The notes beneath the pieces were generated by a model. It was given only the letters and a program-made list of their open reading frames with translations, had not been told where the DNA came from and searched no databases. Made by a program: the position numbers and the translations under genes. Positions 9,379 through 18,787 of a stretch of DNA of 64,000 nt are shown one piece after another. The stretch is from Janthinobacterium silvisoli (lineage in GTDB: Bacteria; Pseudomonadota; Gammaproteobacteria; Burkholderiales; Burkholderiaceae_D), in assembly GCF_014200725.1 (NCBI RefSeq), contig NZ_JACHCL010000002.1:1-64000 (forward strand), in the 5' to 3' direction. Each line of letters begins with the position of its first letter. The first letter of the stretch is position 1.

Positions 9379-12300
9379 ATGAACAATAACGCGGTACACG
9401 GGCGGAGCAGCAGCAAGCCGGCTCTGCGCCATCTTTCAACACGGGGAGTGCCTATCGCATTGGCACTATTGTTAGCTGCGTGCGGCGGTGGAAGCGATTC
9501 CAGCAGCCCGCAATCGCAGCGTCTGCTCGGTTCATCCGTATCATCAGTCGAAACGGCACTGACGCCAGTCGGCGCGACAGCCAGTTCCTCCGAACGGGGC
9601 GACCTGAATGCGGCGGCGGCCATCGACCATGACCTGAAGACCCGCTGGGGTAGCGCGTTTACCGACAATGAATACCTGACGCTCGATTTTGGCACCACGC
9701 AAACGATTACGCGCGTGCATATCGAGTGGGAAGACGCTCACGCCAGCCAGTACCTGCTGCAAGTGTCGGACGACAATAAAACTTGGACCACCGTCAAGGA
9801 AGTCAACGATAGCCAGGGCGGTATCGAGGATATTTCCGGCTTTTCGGGCCAGGGCCGCTACCTGCGCATGCAGGGCGTGCAACGCTCGGGCCGCTACGGC
9901 TATTCCATCCTGGAAATCCAGGCTTTCACTGGCACGCCAGATGCGCAGCCGCCGACCACCGAGCCGCAGCCACCTGTCGTCTTCGATCCAGGCCAGCCTG
10001 GCGTGGCCATCAAACCGGTAGCGGCTACCTCGTCGCGCCTGGAAAATCCGGGCCTGTCGGCCGCCATGACCCTCGATGGCAAGCTTGACACCCGCTGGGG
10101 CAGCGCGTTCGAAGACGGCGCCTGGATCCAGTTCGACTTTGGCGCCAAGACCCAGGTCGGCTACATGAAGCTGCAGTGGCAAGCCGCCTACGGCAAGCAA
10201 TATGCGCTGCAAGTGTCCGATGACGGCCAGACCTGGACGCAAGTGCGCTATGTAGCCAATGGCCAGGGCGGAACCGAGGAATTCTATAACCTGGGCATCA
10301 ACTCGCGCTACATCCGCCTGCAAGGCGTGGCACGCTCTTCGCAATACGGCTATTCCTTGCTGGAAGTGGGCTTCAAATCGCCAGGCAGCGATAACAGCTT
10401 GCCTGCCAACACCACTTCCGCACTGAAATACCCGCTCAATGGCACCGCTTTGCAGCCGCTGCCTGCCGTGGCCGAACCGCTGGAAACCTTGCAGTTCACC
10501 TTGCCCGACGGCACCCTGGTCACCCGCTTCGGCGCGCGCGGCCTGGCTCGCCACGGCCGCGAGCGCGGTGAAGAGTGGAACGAAATCGGCTATGGCCCGA
10601 ATGAAACGGTGGACCCGGTCACCGGCTTGCCGGTCGATAAAGGCCCAGGCAATTACCTGACGTTCGTACCGCAATACTTCCAGAACCGTACCTGGGGCGT
10701 CGAGATCATCGACAACAGCCGCGTTGCCGGCGTGACCAAGCCGACCCTGATCGTCAACCAGTACACCACCGTCGACTTCCTGAACGGCGGCATCGCCTTC
10801 TTCCGCGGCTTCGACCGTCCAGGCGTGACCGGCTACGGCTGGATGTCGCCAGGCGAACTGGTGGACCGCAACGTGCCGGTCTGCAAACCTGTTGCCTACC
10901 CTGCCAACAACAAGCTGAGCTCACCTAACGGCATCAATGGCGCTTGTACCTTGCTGGTCAAGGAATATCCAGGCCACGGCGGCCTCGATGCGAATGGCTT
11001 CCCGAATGGCCAGGACATCAAGGCGCGCAACCTGGTTGCCGGCGACATTATCGAAGTGTCGCCATCGATGTTTACCACCACCCAGTCGATGGGCGCGATC
11101 GGCGACAACGGCGGCATCCGCTACTACTCCTACGAGTGGAGCTATGTGGTCGGCGCCGGCCTGCGTCCGTGGTATGGCGTGCAGCCGCGCCTGAACTCGG
11201 TACCATTGCCAGACGAAACCTTGTCGGGCGGCCTGGGTTCGGTGTCGTATAACTACTCGGACAATGCCCTGTTCATGTTCCAGCAGCCGCACAACAATAT
11301 CGGCATGCAAAACATGCAGCGCTTTGTTGAAGGCCGCCGCCTGGTACACACCAACTTCACCACCGGTGACCATAACGAGAATGGCAACGACCGCTACCAG
11401 CCTGCTGTCGGCAAGCAAGGCCCGCGCTTCACGCAATCGGTCTGTATCGCCTGCCACGTCGACAATGGCCGCAGCCCGTCGCCAAACTCGATCAACCAGC
11501 GCCTCGACACCATGGGCGTGCGCGTCGCTGTGACCGGTCCGGATGGCAAGCAAGTGCCGCATCCGCAATACGGTACCGCGATCCAGATGAATGCCGTGTC
11601 GTCGACCGGCGCACCGCAGAACTGGGGCACCACCGTCAGCGTCGGCAGCTTCGATACGCGTAACGTCAGCCTGGCTGACGGCACCAAGGTCGAACTGCGC
11701 AAGCCTGTACTGGCCTTCGAAGGCCCGGTCCCCGAGATCTATTCTCTGCGTTCGGCCCAGCCAATGATCGGTACCGGTCTGCTGGAAGCCGTGCCGGAAG
11801 CGGACATCATCGCCCGTGCACGCACCACGCCAGACGCCGATGGCGTCAAGGGCCAGGCTAACTATGTGTTCGATCCTGAGTCGGGCGCCGTCCGCCTGGG
11901 CCGTTTCGGCTGGAAAGCCGGCAAGTCCACCCTGCGCCATCAGGCAGCCGAAGCGCTGATGCTGGACATGGCAGTGACCTCGCCGGTCTACCCTAACCGT
12001 GCCTGCATGAACGGCCCTGTCGCTTGCGCGGCGGGCGGTTCGCAGCCTGGCGTGTCGGAAGCGGATCTGCAAAAGATCTCCAACTACCTGGCACTGGTGG
12101 CCGTACCTGCACAGCGCAGCCTGCCGAGCGGCTTCCCGAAAGGCGTGGCGCCGATCGAAGAGCTCGACGTTGATCCTGTGAAAGTTGCTGCTGGTTCCAA
12201 GCTGTTCCAGGGCATGCGTTGTGCTGCTTGCCATACGGTAGAGATGAAAACCGGCAACGGCCACCTGTTTGCAGAGCTGCGCAACCAGACCATCCGTCCA

Positions 12301-12588
12301 TACAGCGACTTGTTGCTGCATGATATGGGTCCTGAGCTGGCCGACAAGTTCACCGAAGGCCAGGCAGCGGGCAGCATGTGGCGTACCGCTCCACTGTGGG
12401 GCATCGGCTACACGGATAAAGTCATGGGTACCAGCGGCAAGGCCGGCTACCTGCATGACGGCCGCGCCCGCAACCTCACCGAGGCCATCATGTGGCACGG
12501 TGGCGAAGGCACGGCAGCCCGCCAACGTTTCGCCAACCTGTCGAAGACAGACCGCGATTCGCTGCTGGCTTTCCTGAAGTCGCTGTAA
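9379..12588 (+). CDS. Lipoprotein with two discoidin (F5/8C) domains and a di-haem cytochrome c oxidoreductase domain
   Basis: The 1069-aa product starts with a lipoprotein signal (LALLLAAC then GGGSDS), so it should be anchored in a membrane. Two F5/8 type C discoidin domains follow (about 55-185 and 205-335); each has the TRWGSAF/YGYS pattern seen in carbohydrate- or surface-binding modules. The rest is a DUF1111-type di-haem oxidoreductase with two haem-c sites, C689-x-x-C692-H693 and C948-x-x-C951-H952. DUF1111 proteins resemble MauG/cytochrome c peroxidases and are usually about 450-550 aa, so this is an unusual fusion. Binding to a polymer or cell surface followed by a redox or peroxidase reaction is the obvious inference; the substrate is unknown. 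AAGGA precedes the ATG. Confidence 0.88.
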   Translation: MNNNAVHGRSSSKPALRHLSTRGVPIALALLLAACGGGSDSSSPQSQRLLGSSVSSVETALTPVGATASSSERGDLNAAAAIDHDLKTRWGSAFTDNEYLTLDFGTTQTITRVHIEWEDAHASQYLLQVSDDNKTWTTVKEVNDSQGGIEDISGFSGQGRYLRMQGVQRSGRYGYSILEIQAFTGTPDAQPPTTEPQPPVVFDPGQPGVAIKPVAATSSRLENPGLSAAMTLDGKLDTRWGSAFEDGAWIQFDFGAKTQVGYMKLQWQAAYGKQYALQVSDDGQTWTQVRYVANGQGGTEEFYNLGINSRYIRLQGVARSSQYGYSLLEVGFKSPGSDNSLPANTTSALKYPLNGTALQPLPAVAEPLETLQFTLPDGTLVTRFGARGLARHGRERGEEWNEIGYGPNETVDPVTGLPVDKGPGNYLTFVPQYFQNRTWGVEIIDNSRVAGVTKPTLIVNQYTTVDFLNGGIAFFRGFDRPGVTGYGWMSPGELVDRNVPVCKPVAYPANNKLSSPNGINGACTLLVKEYPGHGGLDANGFPNGQDIKARNLVAGDIIEVSPSMFTTTQSMGAIGDNGGIRYYSYEWSYVVGAGLRPWYGVQPRLNSVPLPDETLSGGLGSVSYNYSDNALFMFQQPHNNIGMQNMQRFVEGRRLVHTNFTTGDHNENGNDRYQPAVGKQGPRFTQSVCIACHVDNGRSPSPNSINQRLDTMGVRVAVTGPDGKQVPHPQYGTAIQMNAVSSTGAPQNWGTTVSVGSFDTRNVSLADGTKVELRKPVLAFEGPVPEIYSLRSAQPMIGTGLLEAVPEADIIARARTTPDADGVKGQANYVFDPESGAVRLGRFGWKAGKSTLRHQAAEALMLDMAVTSPVYPNRACMNGPVACAAGGSQPGVSEADLQKISNYLALVAVPAQRSLPSGFPKGVAPIEELDVDPVKVAAGSKLFQGMRCAACHTVEMKTGNGHLFAELRNQTIRPYSDLLLHDMGPELADKFTEGQAAGSMWRTAPLWGIGYTDKVMGTSGKAGYLHDGRARNLTEAIMWHGGEGTAARQRFANLSKTDRDSLLAFLKSL

Positions 12589-13718: not shown

Positions 13719-14069
13719 TTATCCAAGGTAGAGCGGATTGCCATCGATATACACGGTAACGTCCTTGCTATCGATGCCGGCTGGCGCGATGCGCGACAGT
13801 TTGATGCTGAAGGTGTCAGGATAGGTGTCGAAATGCCACACGAAGCTTTTGCCGTTGACATTAAATTTGATGGTTTCGCCATCTTCGACGTTGACTGACC
13901 TGGTCTTTGCATCGATGGTGACGACACGGGCCGGCATATCTGACGCTACTTGGATGCCGTAATCGGCGCTGCCGCCGGTAGGCGCCTGCGCTTGGGCAGC
14001 AGGTGCCAGCATGCTTGCAGACAGGGCGGCAATGGCCGCCGAGGCGGCGAGTTTTTTCAATGTGAACAT
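13719..14069 (-). CDS. CzcE-like periplasmic metal-binding protein
   Basis: This 116-aa exported protein has a Sec signal ending at AAQAQA (about residue 28), then a small beta-sandwich-like domain with the features of the CzcE family: a WHFDTYPD stretch, a hydrophobic IKLSRIAPAGI segment and a C-terminal VTVYIDGNPLYLG. CzcE from Cupriavidus binds copper in the periplasm. No czc or cop efflux genes are next to it. The 255-nt region beyond its start (14070-14324) contains a TTTCATGAAA palindrome near 14154 but no gene. Family assignment is from sequence pattern; metal specificity is not shown. Confidence 0.7.
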   Translation of the reverse strand: MFTLKKLAASAAIAALSASMLAPAAQAQAPTGGSADYGIQVASDMPARVVTIDAKTRSVNVEDGETIKFNVNGKSFVWHFDTYPDTFSIKLSRIAPAGIDSKDVTVYIDGNPLYLG

Positions 14070-14595: not shown

Positions 14596-15480
14596 TCAAA
14601 AAGGCTGATCTTGATCAGCCTTTTCCATATCCAGAGTATGGATCAGGCCGGCGTCCAGGGCCAGCGGCAGCCACAGCATGGTCTCGGCCAGTACCTCGGC
14701 CACCGGCATGCGACTATCGCGGCTGGCCTGCTGCGCGCACAGCATGACGGATGCGGCTCGCCCGGCGGCCTGCAGGAAATAAAATTGCCACGGCTGCAAG
14801 TCATGCATGGCCAGCCGATAATGCAGGCGGCTTATCGCGACATGGCTGGCTGCCGCCCCGGGCTGGTCCGGCATTTCCTCTGCTCCTGAAGCCTGCGCCT
14901 GCTGCCAGAAAGCGCGCAAGGGAAATGACAGGGCCAGCAGGCGCGTGCATGGCGCCAGGCAAATCATGGGCATATCGCCGGCCAGGCTATCGAAACCGTG
15001 GCGCATGACCGGGCGCGCGTGCTTTTCCAGCCCGGGCGCCCTGCCCGCCTCGCTACGCGCCCGCTCCAGCCGCGCCAGCTCAATGGGAAAGCACAGCAAG
15101 GCTGACGCTTCGGCCCCGGCAGCGGCCTGGCTATCAAGCAGGAAATCGGCAAAGCCAGCGCCCAAGTCATACAAGGTAGGCGAACGCGAGGGATGGCGCC
15201 AGATGTAGGCACGGGCGAAAAAGTCAAACAGCTCTTCCCCCATCGTCTTGCGCAGCACGGGATAATCGGCTTGCAGGCAGTCGAGCAGGCGCATCACATA
15301 ACCGTCGGCATAGATGAACAGGCGGTCGCTGCCGTCCGGCGCAGGCCGCAGCACTTGTGCCTGCGCAAGACCATGATGTTGCCGGGCCAGCTCTGCGCCG
15401 CGGGCCGCCCCGCCCGGCGTCATCATGGCCGTCAAAAACCAGGCTTGCAATTGTTGCAGTTCCACCTGGTCGGCATTCAT
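14596..15480 (-). CDS. DUF2063 (HvfC-type) partner protein of a DUF692 oxidase
   Basis: This 294-aa protein matches the DUF2063/HvfC family: N-terminal helical domain with [12 protein letters not shown], then [29 protein letters not shown] and [17 protein letters not shown], and a second domain to the C-terminus. In MNIO systems (TglI/HvfC-like partners) such a protein recruits the precursor peptide to the oxidase. Its start overlaps the end of the DUF692 gene by 4 nt (ATGA), so the two are translationally coupled. It is the third gene of the operon that starts with the ferritin-like, cysteine-rich protein. The annotation is strong for family; the actual substrate is inferred. Confidence 0.88.
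14599..14624. terminator. Bidirectional terminator-like hairpin
   Basis: AAAAGGCTGATC (14599-14610) and GATCAGCCTTTT (14613-14624) are perfectly complementary, with A and T runs at the outer ends, so it works as an intrinsic terminator in both directions. It overlaps the last codons of the minus-strand gene. Confidence 0.7.
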
Positions 15481-16409
15481 GGCATGGCCTGTGCATCAAG
15501 GTGGAAAGCCAGCGGCGTCGAAATGGAAGCGCTGGCGCAGATGACCGGGCTATCGCGCACGTCGCCAAGCATGGCGGCATGCGCCTTGTGCAATTCCGCC
15601 AGCAATTCGGGATAGTCGGGGATATTGGCGTCCCACTCCAGGCAAGCAGAAACACCGCCCGTCAGTTGCTGCGCCAGCGCATACAAGCGCCAGACGGCTG
15701 CCGGCACGGGCGCATCATGCGTATCGATCAGACAAGTACCGCAATCGCTGGGGCCGGCCAGGTGGATTTGCACGATGTGGGAGGCCGGCAACTGGCGGAT
15801 GTAATGGGCTGCATCATAACCATGGTTAAACGCCGAGACATGTACATTGTTTACGTCGAGCAAGAGCCCGCAGCCGGTAGCCTCGCACAGGCGGCCCATA
15901 AATTCCCATTCTGGCATGCTGGAACGGCTAAATTCCACGTAGGTGCTGGGGTTCTCCAGGATCAGCGGGCGCCCCAGGAATTCCTGCACCTGCCGCACGC
16001 GCGCCGCCACATGGCGCAAGCTCGCTTCGTCGAGCGGTAGCGGCAGCAAATCGTGGCTGTTGAGCGTGGCCACACCGGTCCAGCACAGATGGTCGGAAAT
16101 CCAGGCCGGCTTGAAGTCTTCCGCCAGCTGGCGCAGCTGGCGCAGGTACTGCAAGTCCAGCGCATCGCTGCTGCCGATTGACAGCGACACGCCGTGCATG
16201 ACGATGGGCACCTGCGCCGCCACTTGTTCCAGCACATGGCGCGCATAACCGTGGTTGTCGATGAAGTTCTCGCTGATGATCTCGAACCAGCCGACTTGCG
16301 GTCCATGCTGCAGGATGTGTCCATAATGGGGATGACGCAGCCCCAGACCCAGGCCCAGATTGGGCAGGCCCAGGCGGGGCTGCAGCACTTGCTGGCCGCC
16401 GTCCATCAA
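15477..16409 (-). CDS. DUF692 multinuclear non-haem iron oxidase (MNIO, HvfB/MbnB-like)
   Basis: This 310-aa TIM-barrel enzyme belongs to the DUF692 (MNIO) family, whose characterised members (MbnB, TglH, ChrH) oxidatively rearrange cysteines in ribosomally made peptides using two or three iron atoms. The conserved blocks are all present: [49 protein letters not shown] and LIDTHDAPV, which supply the His, Asp and Glu metal ligands. It overlaps the upstream ferritin-like gene and the downstream DUF2063 gene by 4 nt each. No short HvfA or DUF2282 type precursor gene is seen nearby; the cysteine-rich tail of the upstream protein is the only visible candidate substrate. Confidence 0.92.
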
Positions 16410-18418
16410 GTCGAAGGTGGCAAGGCCAGGCGCAGGTCGGTTGGCGCCGGCTTGTCCCCTGGTGTCTTGCCGCGCGCCGCCATCACCTTGGCATACGCTT
16501 CCCAGGCCTTGTCATGCACGTTTTCACCGAGCTTGAAACTGAGCGTGTCCTTCAAGGGTAGTGACTTGTGTTCCGGTGCAGGGCCGAAGTTATACAAGGT
16601 CATGGTCTCTGGCTGTGCATTGGGAAACAGTTGCGACGCAGAAATCGGCACCGCGCAGCCGCCGAAACTGGCGCATTTATTATCGCTGGGAGCACTGTAA
16701 ACCTGGCTTCCAGGCGTAGGTTTGGGCGCGCCGCACAGATTGCCCGCCACCTTGCTGACCTTGGCGGAATGGCCACAGGAAGAGCCGCCGCACTGGCCAC
16801 CGCCAGTATCGAGCTGGGCAAAGCCGCAGCCACCCTGGGCCCGGCAACCGTTGGAACCGCGGCAGGTATGGTAGACGGCCAGCGCCGCGCACGACGAGGC
16901 AGCATCGCCTTCCAGCTGCATGCCCTGGCAGGCGTGGTAGAGCACGTCTTTTTCCGGCAGCGGCACGCCCGTCGCCAGGGTCGGTGCCTGGCCCAATACA
17001 GCCCAGCAGATGGCCATGCGGTCGCCCGCGCCCACCATCGATGGATAAGGAAAAACCGTATCCTGCTTGAGCCAATAAGTGTCGAGTACGGACGTGATGC
17101 CATAGATGGCACCGGTGGCTACCGTGCTCAGCATGGCTTGCGTACCGGACTTGTCCTTCAGGCGGTTCAAGGCGCCGGCCACGTCGGACGGCTTGGGAAT
17201 GTTGGCCGGAGCCGTGGCCGGGTTGTAGCGTGCATTGGTCAGCATGGCTTCGTCCCAGCGATTTCCCTGCGCATGCCATGAAGCCCAGGTCTTGATGGGC
17301 AGCTTGTCCTTCACCTGGCCAAAGCGTTCATAGTGATCGTATTCGGCGCTGTCGTGACGGGCGGCGGCATCGCGCGAGGGGGCGCCCTTGCCATCATTCG
17401 TATACGACGGGTAATCGGCTTCCAGCGCGGCCAGGTCTTCGCGGTAATCGGGCTTGACGGCAGCAAGCATGACGCTGCGGCGATAGCGTTGAATGGCGGT
17501 ATCGCTGCCCTCGCCCTGGTCGGTAATGGCCGCCATCATGTCGATCGCCTTGTTGAAGGAGCCGACCTGGCCGCCATCCTGGTCTTGCGGACCGAAACAG
17601 GTATCGAAGCGGGGAAATTCGGCCTTTTCATGGCCGCTCACCTTGCTGTTGAACATATCCTGCTGTACCGAGCCATTGACGAACAGCTTTTGCCACAGGG
17701 TCTGGCCATCCGTATACTCGATGCTGATGTAGCGGGCATAGCATTCATACATATAACCGATGGTGCCGAACAGGGGCAAGTCGTGTACCGACTTGCCCGG
17801 CGTCCAGCCTGGCAGCGGCACCTCGGGGAAATACTTGGTATGGTCGATGCTGTCATAGGCTTGCAGCTGTTCGCGCGCCTGCTGCTCCGGCTGCTCGATG
17901 GCCAGGAACAGGTCGCACTGGTTGTCGTTCAGCTCTTCCAGGTTGACCCGCACATGCTGGTAGCCAGCGGTGTCTTTCAGGTCGACGATATGGGGAATGA
18001 TGGTGAGGTCCTTGCCGTAGCAAGTCCAGCCATGCTGCTGGTTTTGCAGCTCGGTCCCCGTAAAGCATGGCGCGGCGCCGATGGCCGTGCTCAGGTTGGC
18101 GGCCATCTGCAGATGCAGCATTTCCTGGATAAACACGCTGAAAATGATATTGAAAGCGTGCTGCTCGGGCGAGTCAGGCTTGGCCGTGGTGCTCATGCCA
18201 GGCCACTGGCGCCCATCGTAATAGTTGATGCCCTTGGAATTGATCTGGTGCGTGCCCTGTATCGAATACATGGTGCACATATACAGCGGGATGGTGAACA
18301 GTTCCACGCTGACGGCGGCCTGGGCGATGGCCCGCAGGGCGGCAGTATCGGTGGCGAGGCAGTCCAGCGGACGGTTGGTGATAGCTGGCTGCGTACTTCC
18401 TAAAACGGGCATTTTCAT
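16406..18418 (-). CDS. Ferritin-like (VioB-type) protein with a cysteine-rich C-terminal segment
   Basis: This 670-aa protein has an N-terminal ferritin-like domain of the type named after the iminophenyl-pyruvate dimer synthase VioB: helix 1 holds [13 protein letters not shown] and helix 2 holds [14 protein letters not shown] (an ExxH metal pair). Residues around 491-590 contain ten of the eleven cysteines of the C-terminal third, including the run [15 protein letters not shown], then QCGGSSCG, then KCASFGGC. This resembles the CxGxNxCxxxGxC repeats of MNIO-modified proteins. No signal peptide is visible. I chose ATG 18418 over GTG 18430 because GGAG lies 6 nt upstream. It is the first gene of an overlapping operon with the DUF692 oxidase and DUF2063 partner, which suggests its cysteines are modified. 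The reaction of the ferritin-like part is unknown. Confidence 0.85.
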
Positions 18419-18787
18419 TCTTGTCTCCACAGGAAAGATGCGTTTCGGACGTCAATTTCTGGCTGGCAAAGTGTGCGGCTGGGAGATCATACGCCAAACA
18501 AATATGCTTATTCCATTTTTGCCATTTTATTTTTTTGTTATTGTTTTTATTGATTATTTCGCTGGTGGGCTTTTAAAATCTCTATCCATACGGCACCTTT
18601 TAATGACAATTGGATAGATTTTTTGTCCTGCAAATGTGTAAGGTCGATCCGCGCGCGCAGTGCGCACCTACCGATACAAACATTCAGACACCATCAGGTT
18701 CTCGCTGGAAAATGTCCAGATGGCCTGAATCATCACAGGCAAGTATGCTTGAGAACGTGACTTCCCTATATCCTCAGGAGAGATAGT
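18419..18787. other. Divergent intergenic region before the ferritin-like operon
   Basis: This stretch of 369 bases is AT-rich between 18490 and 18620 and lies between two divergent genes, so it should carry both promoters. A GC-rich self-complementary patch (GCGCGCGCAGTGCGC) lies near 18650. I see no gene and no clear consensus promoter. Confidence 0.5.

Follow-up and report, generated by a model that had tools for sequence, protein, structure and literature searches.

The genome of Janthinobacterium silvisoli (GCF_014200725.1) encodes a ferritin-like protein of the PF12902 family with a Cys-rich C-terminal tail, directly followed by an MNIO (DUF692) oxidase and a DUF2063 partner protein. 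The three genes overlap on the minus strand of the stretch analysed here, positions 1-64,000 of the forward strand of contig NZ_JACHCL010000002.1 (the window). The tail is homologous to separate proteins which occupy the precursor position in related operons, and it is akin to the BufA2 bufferin precursors. From these comparisons we consider it rather probable that this is a bufferin-type MNIO system in which a ferritin-like metalloprotein carries the precursor core as its C-terminal domain, the tail being modified and kept attached.

A model that saw only the letters and their open reading frames (the sequence-only reading) had proposed three overlapping genes and had named the DUF692 and DUF2063 families. 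The gene calls agreed. The stop codon of the fusion gene and the MNIO start share the overlap TGATG, and the MNIO and DUF2063 genes overlap in ATGA. The MNIO matched PF05114 (Pfam, E 4.7e-105) and, at 350.6 bits, exceeded the curated cut-off of 310 for the NCBIfam model NF050167 MNIO_BufB. PF09836 (DUF2063) was matched by the partner gene in all eight relatives tested as well (Pfam). The ATG at 18418 gives a fusion protein of 670 residues and anchored the homologue alignment; a GTG at 18430 is a possible alternative start.

The Cys-rich tail and its kinship to BufA2

Ten of the 18 Cys residues of the fusion protein fall within residues 491-590 (hypergeometric p 5.6e-5), which agrees with the cluster of about ten noticed from the letters. 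We aligned 14 type I proteins, i.e. fusions of the kind found in the window, the window protein included. C497, C519, C531, C582 and C588 were invariant, C510 and C525 were each kept in 13 proteins, C543 and C562 in 11 and C548 in four. The motif QCGGSSCG, which had been highlighted, comprises C543 and C548; it lies in a gappy spacer of the alignment and is not conserved. Conservation of the Cys core extends beyond the genus, to Pseudoalteromonas and further genomes of the phylum. Among 120 relatives, full-length type I matches were present in J. silvisoli and in 19 of the 39 other genomes of the genus; two further ones gave only weak partial matches to the fusion protein. Beyond the genus, type I occurs in Massilia glaciei, Undibacterium curvum, three Chromobacterium, one more genome of the order and the genomes numbered G613, G626 and G1077. 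Two Pseudoalteromonas records share 35% identity with the query fusion protein over 99% of its length.

A whole-protein profile search uncovered a second type, in which the two parts are separate genes. In four loci (L080, L081, L082 and L084 in our numbering) a ferritin-like gene of 422-432 residues is followed by a Cys protein of 157-172 residues with 11-12 Cys, then by the MNIO and the DUF2063 gene. Measured between the longest open reading frames, the ferritin-like and Cys genes lie 39 bases apart in L080, 45 in L082 and 70 in L084. The Cys gene and the MNIO are separated by 2 bases in L080 and by 276 bases in L084, and they overlap in L082. The split Cys protein has 14 residues ahead of its first Cys, counted from a shared ATG, and sits between the ferritin-like and MNIO genes, the usual place of a precursor. 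In L083 and L120 the type II ferritin-like and Cys parts are joined as one protein, a second fused form.

The relationship was examined by profile comparison. The type I tail matched the type II Cys proteins (four split proteins and one fused tail) at 96.8% (97.1% in another run), the type II proteins matched seven BufA2-like proteins at 94.5%, and the type I tail matched BufA2 at 79%. For none of the three comparisons did any of 100 column shuffles score as high as observed, and reversed-alignment controls gave 0.5-2.8%. With twelve Buf1 proteins as template, type II scored 5%, type I 1% and BufA2 itself 16%. The BufA2 model NF050166 matched two split proteins (E 2e-5, 24.7 bits; E 4e-4, 20.4 bits) below its cut-off of 60 bits, and the tail alone had no match in NCBIfam or Pfam. 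Judged by the profile comparisons together with the sub-cut-off NF050166 scores, the tail is related to BufA2 but is not a BufA2 member as the model defines it. Like a bufA2 gene, the fusion gene lies directly before the MNIO and DUF2063 genes. The Sec signal peptide typical of BufA2 was not seen by hydropathy in eight fusion and three split Cys proteins: the maximal 12-residue mean was 0.1-1.8 vs 2.07-2.41 in seven bufferin controls. This was a hydropathy scan, not a dedicated signal-peptide program, and three start sites were trimmed by hand.

A free precursor might serve the MNIO in trans. The sequence-only reading had found no short precursor, and this held for all 793 open reading frames of at least 25 residues in the window when searched with three Cys profiles. 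The only clear match was the fusion protein itself, the next best having an E of 0.09; none of the mechanical reading frames with 5-15 Cys that overlap the operon genes in other frames matched. The genome (5.9 Mb) contains two MNIO genes and two DUF2063 places. The second MNIO (L002 673-2675, contig C3) is fused to a DUF2063-like domain, 544 residues in total, and adjoins a precursor which, by a sequence motif, we take to be of the Buf1/DUF2282 type. A free BufA2 had no match in the genome at E 0.001; therefore a BufA2 precursor acting in trans was rejected for J. silvisoli. BufA2 exceeded its cut-off in three of the 40 genus genomes (G001, G016 and G034), none of which has the ferritin-like fusion. 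Weak NF050166 matches in other genus genomes adjoin MNIOs of 39-42% identity in the cases compared by position (e.g. G004, G011). Two further observations concern the genus. G016 carries BufA2 gene pairs near MNIO genes (G016:C1:268101-268949 and 5747417-5749090), and a divergent MNIO type with 25-29% identity to that of the window is present in 27 of the 40 genomes, e.g. at G004:C1:4117326-4118129.

Linkage of the Cys domain to MNIO genes

Is the Cys domain ever separated from the MNIO? MNIO and DUF2063 were the next matches downstream in all 36 examined loci with a ferritin-linked Cys domain (20 of the genus, window included, 10 other type I and 6 type II). Thus the profile searches bore out the constant neighbourhood that the sequence-only reading had put up for checking. 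In the second Pseudoalteromonas record the MNIO lies just downstream by coordinates. None of five PF12902 loci without the Cys domain (L085, L087, L114, L115 and L116) had an MNIO within contexts of 15.6-19 kb each. L113 and L117 had none either, but on contigs of just 6.5 and 3.9 kb this carries no weight, and L111, below the Pfam cut-off, was set aside. Counted by genus the comparison is 14 vs 5 (Fisher p ~1e-4), where lineages are not independent and two of the 14 may be one genus. Within Janthinobacterium the same 20 of 40 genomes carry the ferritin-like fusion, the tail and an MNIO of at least 77% identity.

The converse search started from the tail. Among 90 relatives and 200 genomes of the order the type I tail profile A6 found no tail outside ferritin/MNIO loci, and the case in which the same Cys segment occurs without a DUF692 gene, named in advance as the one to look for, was not encountered. 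The matches in the relatives were the same 20 genus genomes, each inside a long ferritin frame; the order genomes yielded one, J. silvisoli. With A2, the profile of the type II Cys proteins, 369 genomes yielded 12 matches and 398 yielded 4. Four of these 16 were ferritin-linked, all with MNIO, nine were BufA2-like small proteins, five of them with an MNIO in the 1.5 kb flank, and three were assigned to neither group. A BufA2-like protein at L095 1504-1785 (minus strand) adjoins an MNIO; downstream of what may be a lipoprotein start it is made up of CKG-type repeats.

A tree of 54 MNIOs was computed (quick IQ-TREE run, SH-aLRT support only, midpoint root), leaving out loci that repeat others and 11 near-identical Janthinobacterium MNIOs. 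The 21 ferritin-linked MNIOs formed one clade (SH-aLRT 99), which splits into type I (15 rows, 96) and type II (6 rows, 99). It grouped with 13 BufA2-linked MNIOs (SH-aLRT 98), the neighbours of which have BufA2 matches with an E of at most 7e-10; the Buf2 labels of L057, L060, L062, L069, L076 and L078 reflect weak or no profile matches and are to be disregarded. Buf1 MNIOs, among them the second MNIO of J. silvisoli, were placed elsewhere. The proposal of the sequence-only reading that the large protein has the MNIO substrate segment built in is thus supported, at the level of sequence, by the split homologues, the BufA2 relation, the MNIO clade, the linkage and the co-occurrence in the genus.

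Coordinates of the operon and of the segments of the fusion protein are collected in the table. The conserved end of the protein, residues 657-670, possibly is a recognition element.

Table. Genes of the ferritin-like/MNIO operon and segments of the fusion protein in the window.
Feature	Position	Strand	Remarks
Ferritin-like (PF12902)/Cys-rich fusion protein	16406..18418	-	670 residues; no signal peptide seen
Ferritin-like domain, residues 33-308	17495..18322	-	PF12902, E 1.6e-23
Middle region, residues 320-485, kept in type I proteins	16964..17461	-	MID profile matches L043, L079, L086, L090, L094, L101
BufA2-like Cys core, residues 497-588, candidate MNIO substrate	16655..16930	-	invariant Cys; separate gene in L080, L081, L082, L084; profile comparison
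Conserved C-terminal tail, residues 657-670	16409..16450	-	P657, R663 and P668 invariant in 14/14 type I proteins
MNIO (DUF692, bufferin-maturase type)	15477..16406	-	PF05114, NF050167, tree, junction; ATG 16406, alternative TTG 16409
DUF2063 partner protein (PME-type 1)	14596..15480	-	PF09836, E 1.6e-19

Two neighbours were noted in the window. A CzcE heavy-metal resistance protein is encoded at 13719-14069 (minus strand; PF16986, E 3.9e-23). A copper link by way of this gene was considered and dropped because none of 29 compared loci had a CzcE match in its flanks. A di-haem oxidoreductase of 1069 residues with F5/8 type C domains is encoded at 9379-12588 (plus strand).

The ferritin-like domain

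The fusion protein scored 84.2 bits against PF12902 (Pfam cut-off 22.3). We aligned 19 PF12902 proteins, of which 13 have a linked Cys domain and 6 do not; E39, E99, H102, E175, E303 and H362 were invariant. Five of them lie inside the Pfam match (residues 33-308), and H362 follows closely downstream. Such a set of four Glu and two His is the pattern expected of a ferritin-like dimetal site. With all six putative ligands kept, the domain probably is active rather than a simple carrier. Among solved structures the whole-protein profile A1 found a single relative, PDB 3hl1 (E 1.1e-5). AlphaFold2 models of the full fusion protein (11 alignment rows) and of residues 14-380 (19 rows) reached mean pLDDT (predicted local distance difference test) values of 39.6 and 38.8, respectively, and were not used.

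The PF12902 family includes VioB, a protein of about 1000 residues, and neighbours of LodA-like quinoproteins. The sequence-only reading had called the fusion protein ferritin-like and VioB-type. The shared family was correct; the protein is not VioB, given its 670 residues and the absence of any NCBIfam match. Violacein was considered because Janthinobacterium and Chromobacterium both carry the ferritin-like/MNIO system. The genome of J. silvisoli has only two PF12902 places, the second of 527 residues, and neither is of VioB length; vio genes were not otherwise searched for. As to LodA, bacterial PF12902 genes directly precede LodA-like genes at L087 7745-10873 and L115 9381-12487 (LodA_N and LodA_C matches). 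In fungi a ferritin-like neighbour of lodA-like genes was noted in a 2015 paper (PMC4417212). L114 7776-9830 (minus strand) encodes a PF12902 protein of 684 residues and 15 Cys with a tail of CDGSH and 4Fe-4S-type domains. This CDGSH and ferredoxin-like tail does not match the Cys profiles. It is a parallel for redox or metal tails in the family.

Possible roles of the fused tail

Bufferin-kind MNIO-DUF2063 pairs are described as removing four hydrogens per Cys to give thiooxazoles, and the products bind copper (PMC13097082, PMC12538549, PMC12452194). Because of the homology to these systems, thiooxazole formation would be expected on the Cys core. In the cytoplasm, MNIO and its DUF2063 partner would convert some of the conserved Cys of residues 497-588 into oxidised heterocycles of the 5-thiooxazole type, with a mass change of about -4 Da per Cys. 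The modified tail would remain attached and form a soft-metal site, of the copper(I) type or another, next to the dimetal centre. Instead of an exported peptide, the result would be a cytoplasmic protein that buffers metal or takes part in redox chemistry. A permanent modified tail is favoured because nothing beside the operon points to release or export: in 14 compared loci no peptidase or exporter recurs directly beside it. Apart from the core genes, recurrence is limited to six pairs of neighbours, one of them a prolyl-oligopeptidase-type gene on the opposite strand, 4.0 and 5.7 kb from the operon in two of the 14 loci. One may go further and suppose a cytoplasmic metalloenzyme, a dimetal catalyst whose own C-terminal domain, bufferin-derived, would be rebuilt by the MNIO into a thiooxazole-type metal site working together with the dimetal centre. 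This extension is tentative, and we consider it rather unlikely.

Several points weigh against a modified, permanently attached tail. The Cys modification by the MNIO is something we infer, and the copper role is borrowed from other MNIO systems. In view of the peptidase gene just mentioned, the tail may be released after all. Neither the window protein nor its tail matched NF050166, the direct match of the type I tail to BufA2 spans just 19 columns, and a six-frame search with A2 (E 0.001) did not pick up the window protein; type I and type II tails therefore are distant. The type I homologue L119 is without C525 and L079 without C510, and where BufA2 has its Cys-Lys motif, type I tails have Cys-Arg, Cys-His or Cys-Lys. 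According to PMC12452194, precursors with a signal peptide go with DUF2063 (PME-type 1) and those without with PME-type 2; here, contrary to this correlation, a Cys core without visible signal peptide pairs with DUF2063. Finally, the AlphaFold models were too poor for use.

Could the ferritin-like domain act on the tail? As in borosins, the enzyme may be fused to its own core: the domain would be a second tailoring oxidase on the Cys core, in cis or, in the split operons, in trans, before or after the MNIO, and the product perhaps a small peptide freed by an unlinked protease. Fusions of enzyme and core as well as split versions are reported for borosins (PMC7878506, PMC8429565), and split and fused ferritin/Cys operons both were found here. 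The intact putative ligands and the prolyl-oligopeptidase-type gene 4-6 kb away in two of 14 loci fit as well. However, no peptidase or exporter accompanies the operon directly, the five informative PF12902 proteins lacking the Cys domain have no MNIO, and the conserved stretch after the core would argue for a protein that stays whole. Borosin enzymes are unrelated. Their core is fused to an alpha-N-methyltransferase; Pfam finds only PF12902 in the present fusion, and this domain is not the established modifying enzyme of the system. All in all, such self-tailoring seems doubtful.

Alternatively, the modified tail may serve the reaction at the dimetal site as a built-in cofactor or electron relay, a self-carried prosthetic group made by the MNIO. 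The strict linkage of the Cys domain to ferritin-like genes, the conservation of the core up to Pseudoalteromonas and other genomes of the phylum, and the L114 protein with its CDGSH and 4Fe-4S-type tail are in line with this. On the other hand, no substrate or activity is known, the structure models were too poor to tell whether the tail meets the site, and in print BufA2 peptides are taken as copper buffers (PMC12452194). We regard such a relay as unlikely, a shade more so than self-tailoring by the ferritin-like domain. The Cys segment might also be a plain domain that binds metal or has a structural role without being modified, the MNIO having another target. The lack of direct evidence for modification and the failure of the tail in the BufA2 model would allow this reading, which is quite improbable in view of the split gene in precursor position, the BufA2 kinship, the exclusive linkage within the searched set, the absence of a BufA2 match elsewhere in the genome and the fact that the Buf1-type precursor found has its own MNIO-DUF2063 fusion.

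How does the modified, attached tail favoured here compare with known systems? BufA2 operons (Buf2, Buf_6/12Cys; bufA2-MNIO-DUF2063) are alike in MNIO family, DUF2063 partner, related Cys core and neighbouring MNIO clade. Here, in contrast, the core is fused to or partnered with a ferritin-like protein, the fusion is full-size, it falls below the BufA2 cut-off and a signal peptide is not visible. Other PF12902 proteins (3hl1) share the domain and the same six invariant putative ligands, yet the five informative ones without Cys domain have no nearby MNIO. To our knowledge proven MNIO substrates are peptides and small precursors, and to this extent the statement of the sequence-only reading that known systems modify Cys of short precursors was right. 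It does not cover the larger bufferin fusions which have been proposed: Buf1/cytochrome c/FGE-sulfatase, MerC/Buf1 and MerC/Buf2 (PMC12452194). These also hold a bufferin core inside a larger protein; none of those named in the accessible text is ferritin-like, and the MerC ones are membrane proteins whereas the J. silvisoli fusion looks cytoplasmic. Adjamnio-I precursors (PMC12452194, Table 2) resemble the split Cys proteins, by description only, in that they have no signal peptide, 122-293 residues, 8-21 Cys and a gene before the MNIO; their published partner is PME-type 2 instead of DUF2063. The two sets may overlap.

The word ferritin is absent from the main text of the 2025 paper on the landscape of MNIO substrates (PMC12452194) and from the captophorin paper (PMC13097082). 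Among the matches listed, titles and the starts of abstracts gave no description of a ferritin-like/MNIO pairing; supplements and most subscription papers were outside this scope. PMC8224329, found with 'DUF692' and 'ferritin-like', has, in the part accessible, ferritin-like in a reference title only and DUF692 genes in a copper-response table.

The lineage described here links an MNIO to a full-size metalloenzyme. Its natural fused and split versions are material for testing whether an MNIO can act on proteins in cis. As an exception to the correlation between signal peptide and PME type given in PMC12452194, it has a bearing on substrate recognition by MNIO-DUF2063 pairs. If the tail is modified, it would be a protein-derived metal site beside a ferritin-like centre. 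If, in addition, the MNIO-rebuilt tail works together with the dimetal centre, the operon would combine two oxidation systems and equip a full-size enzyme with a cofactor that is genetically encoded and installed by another enzyme.

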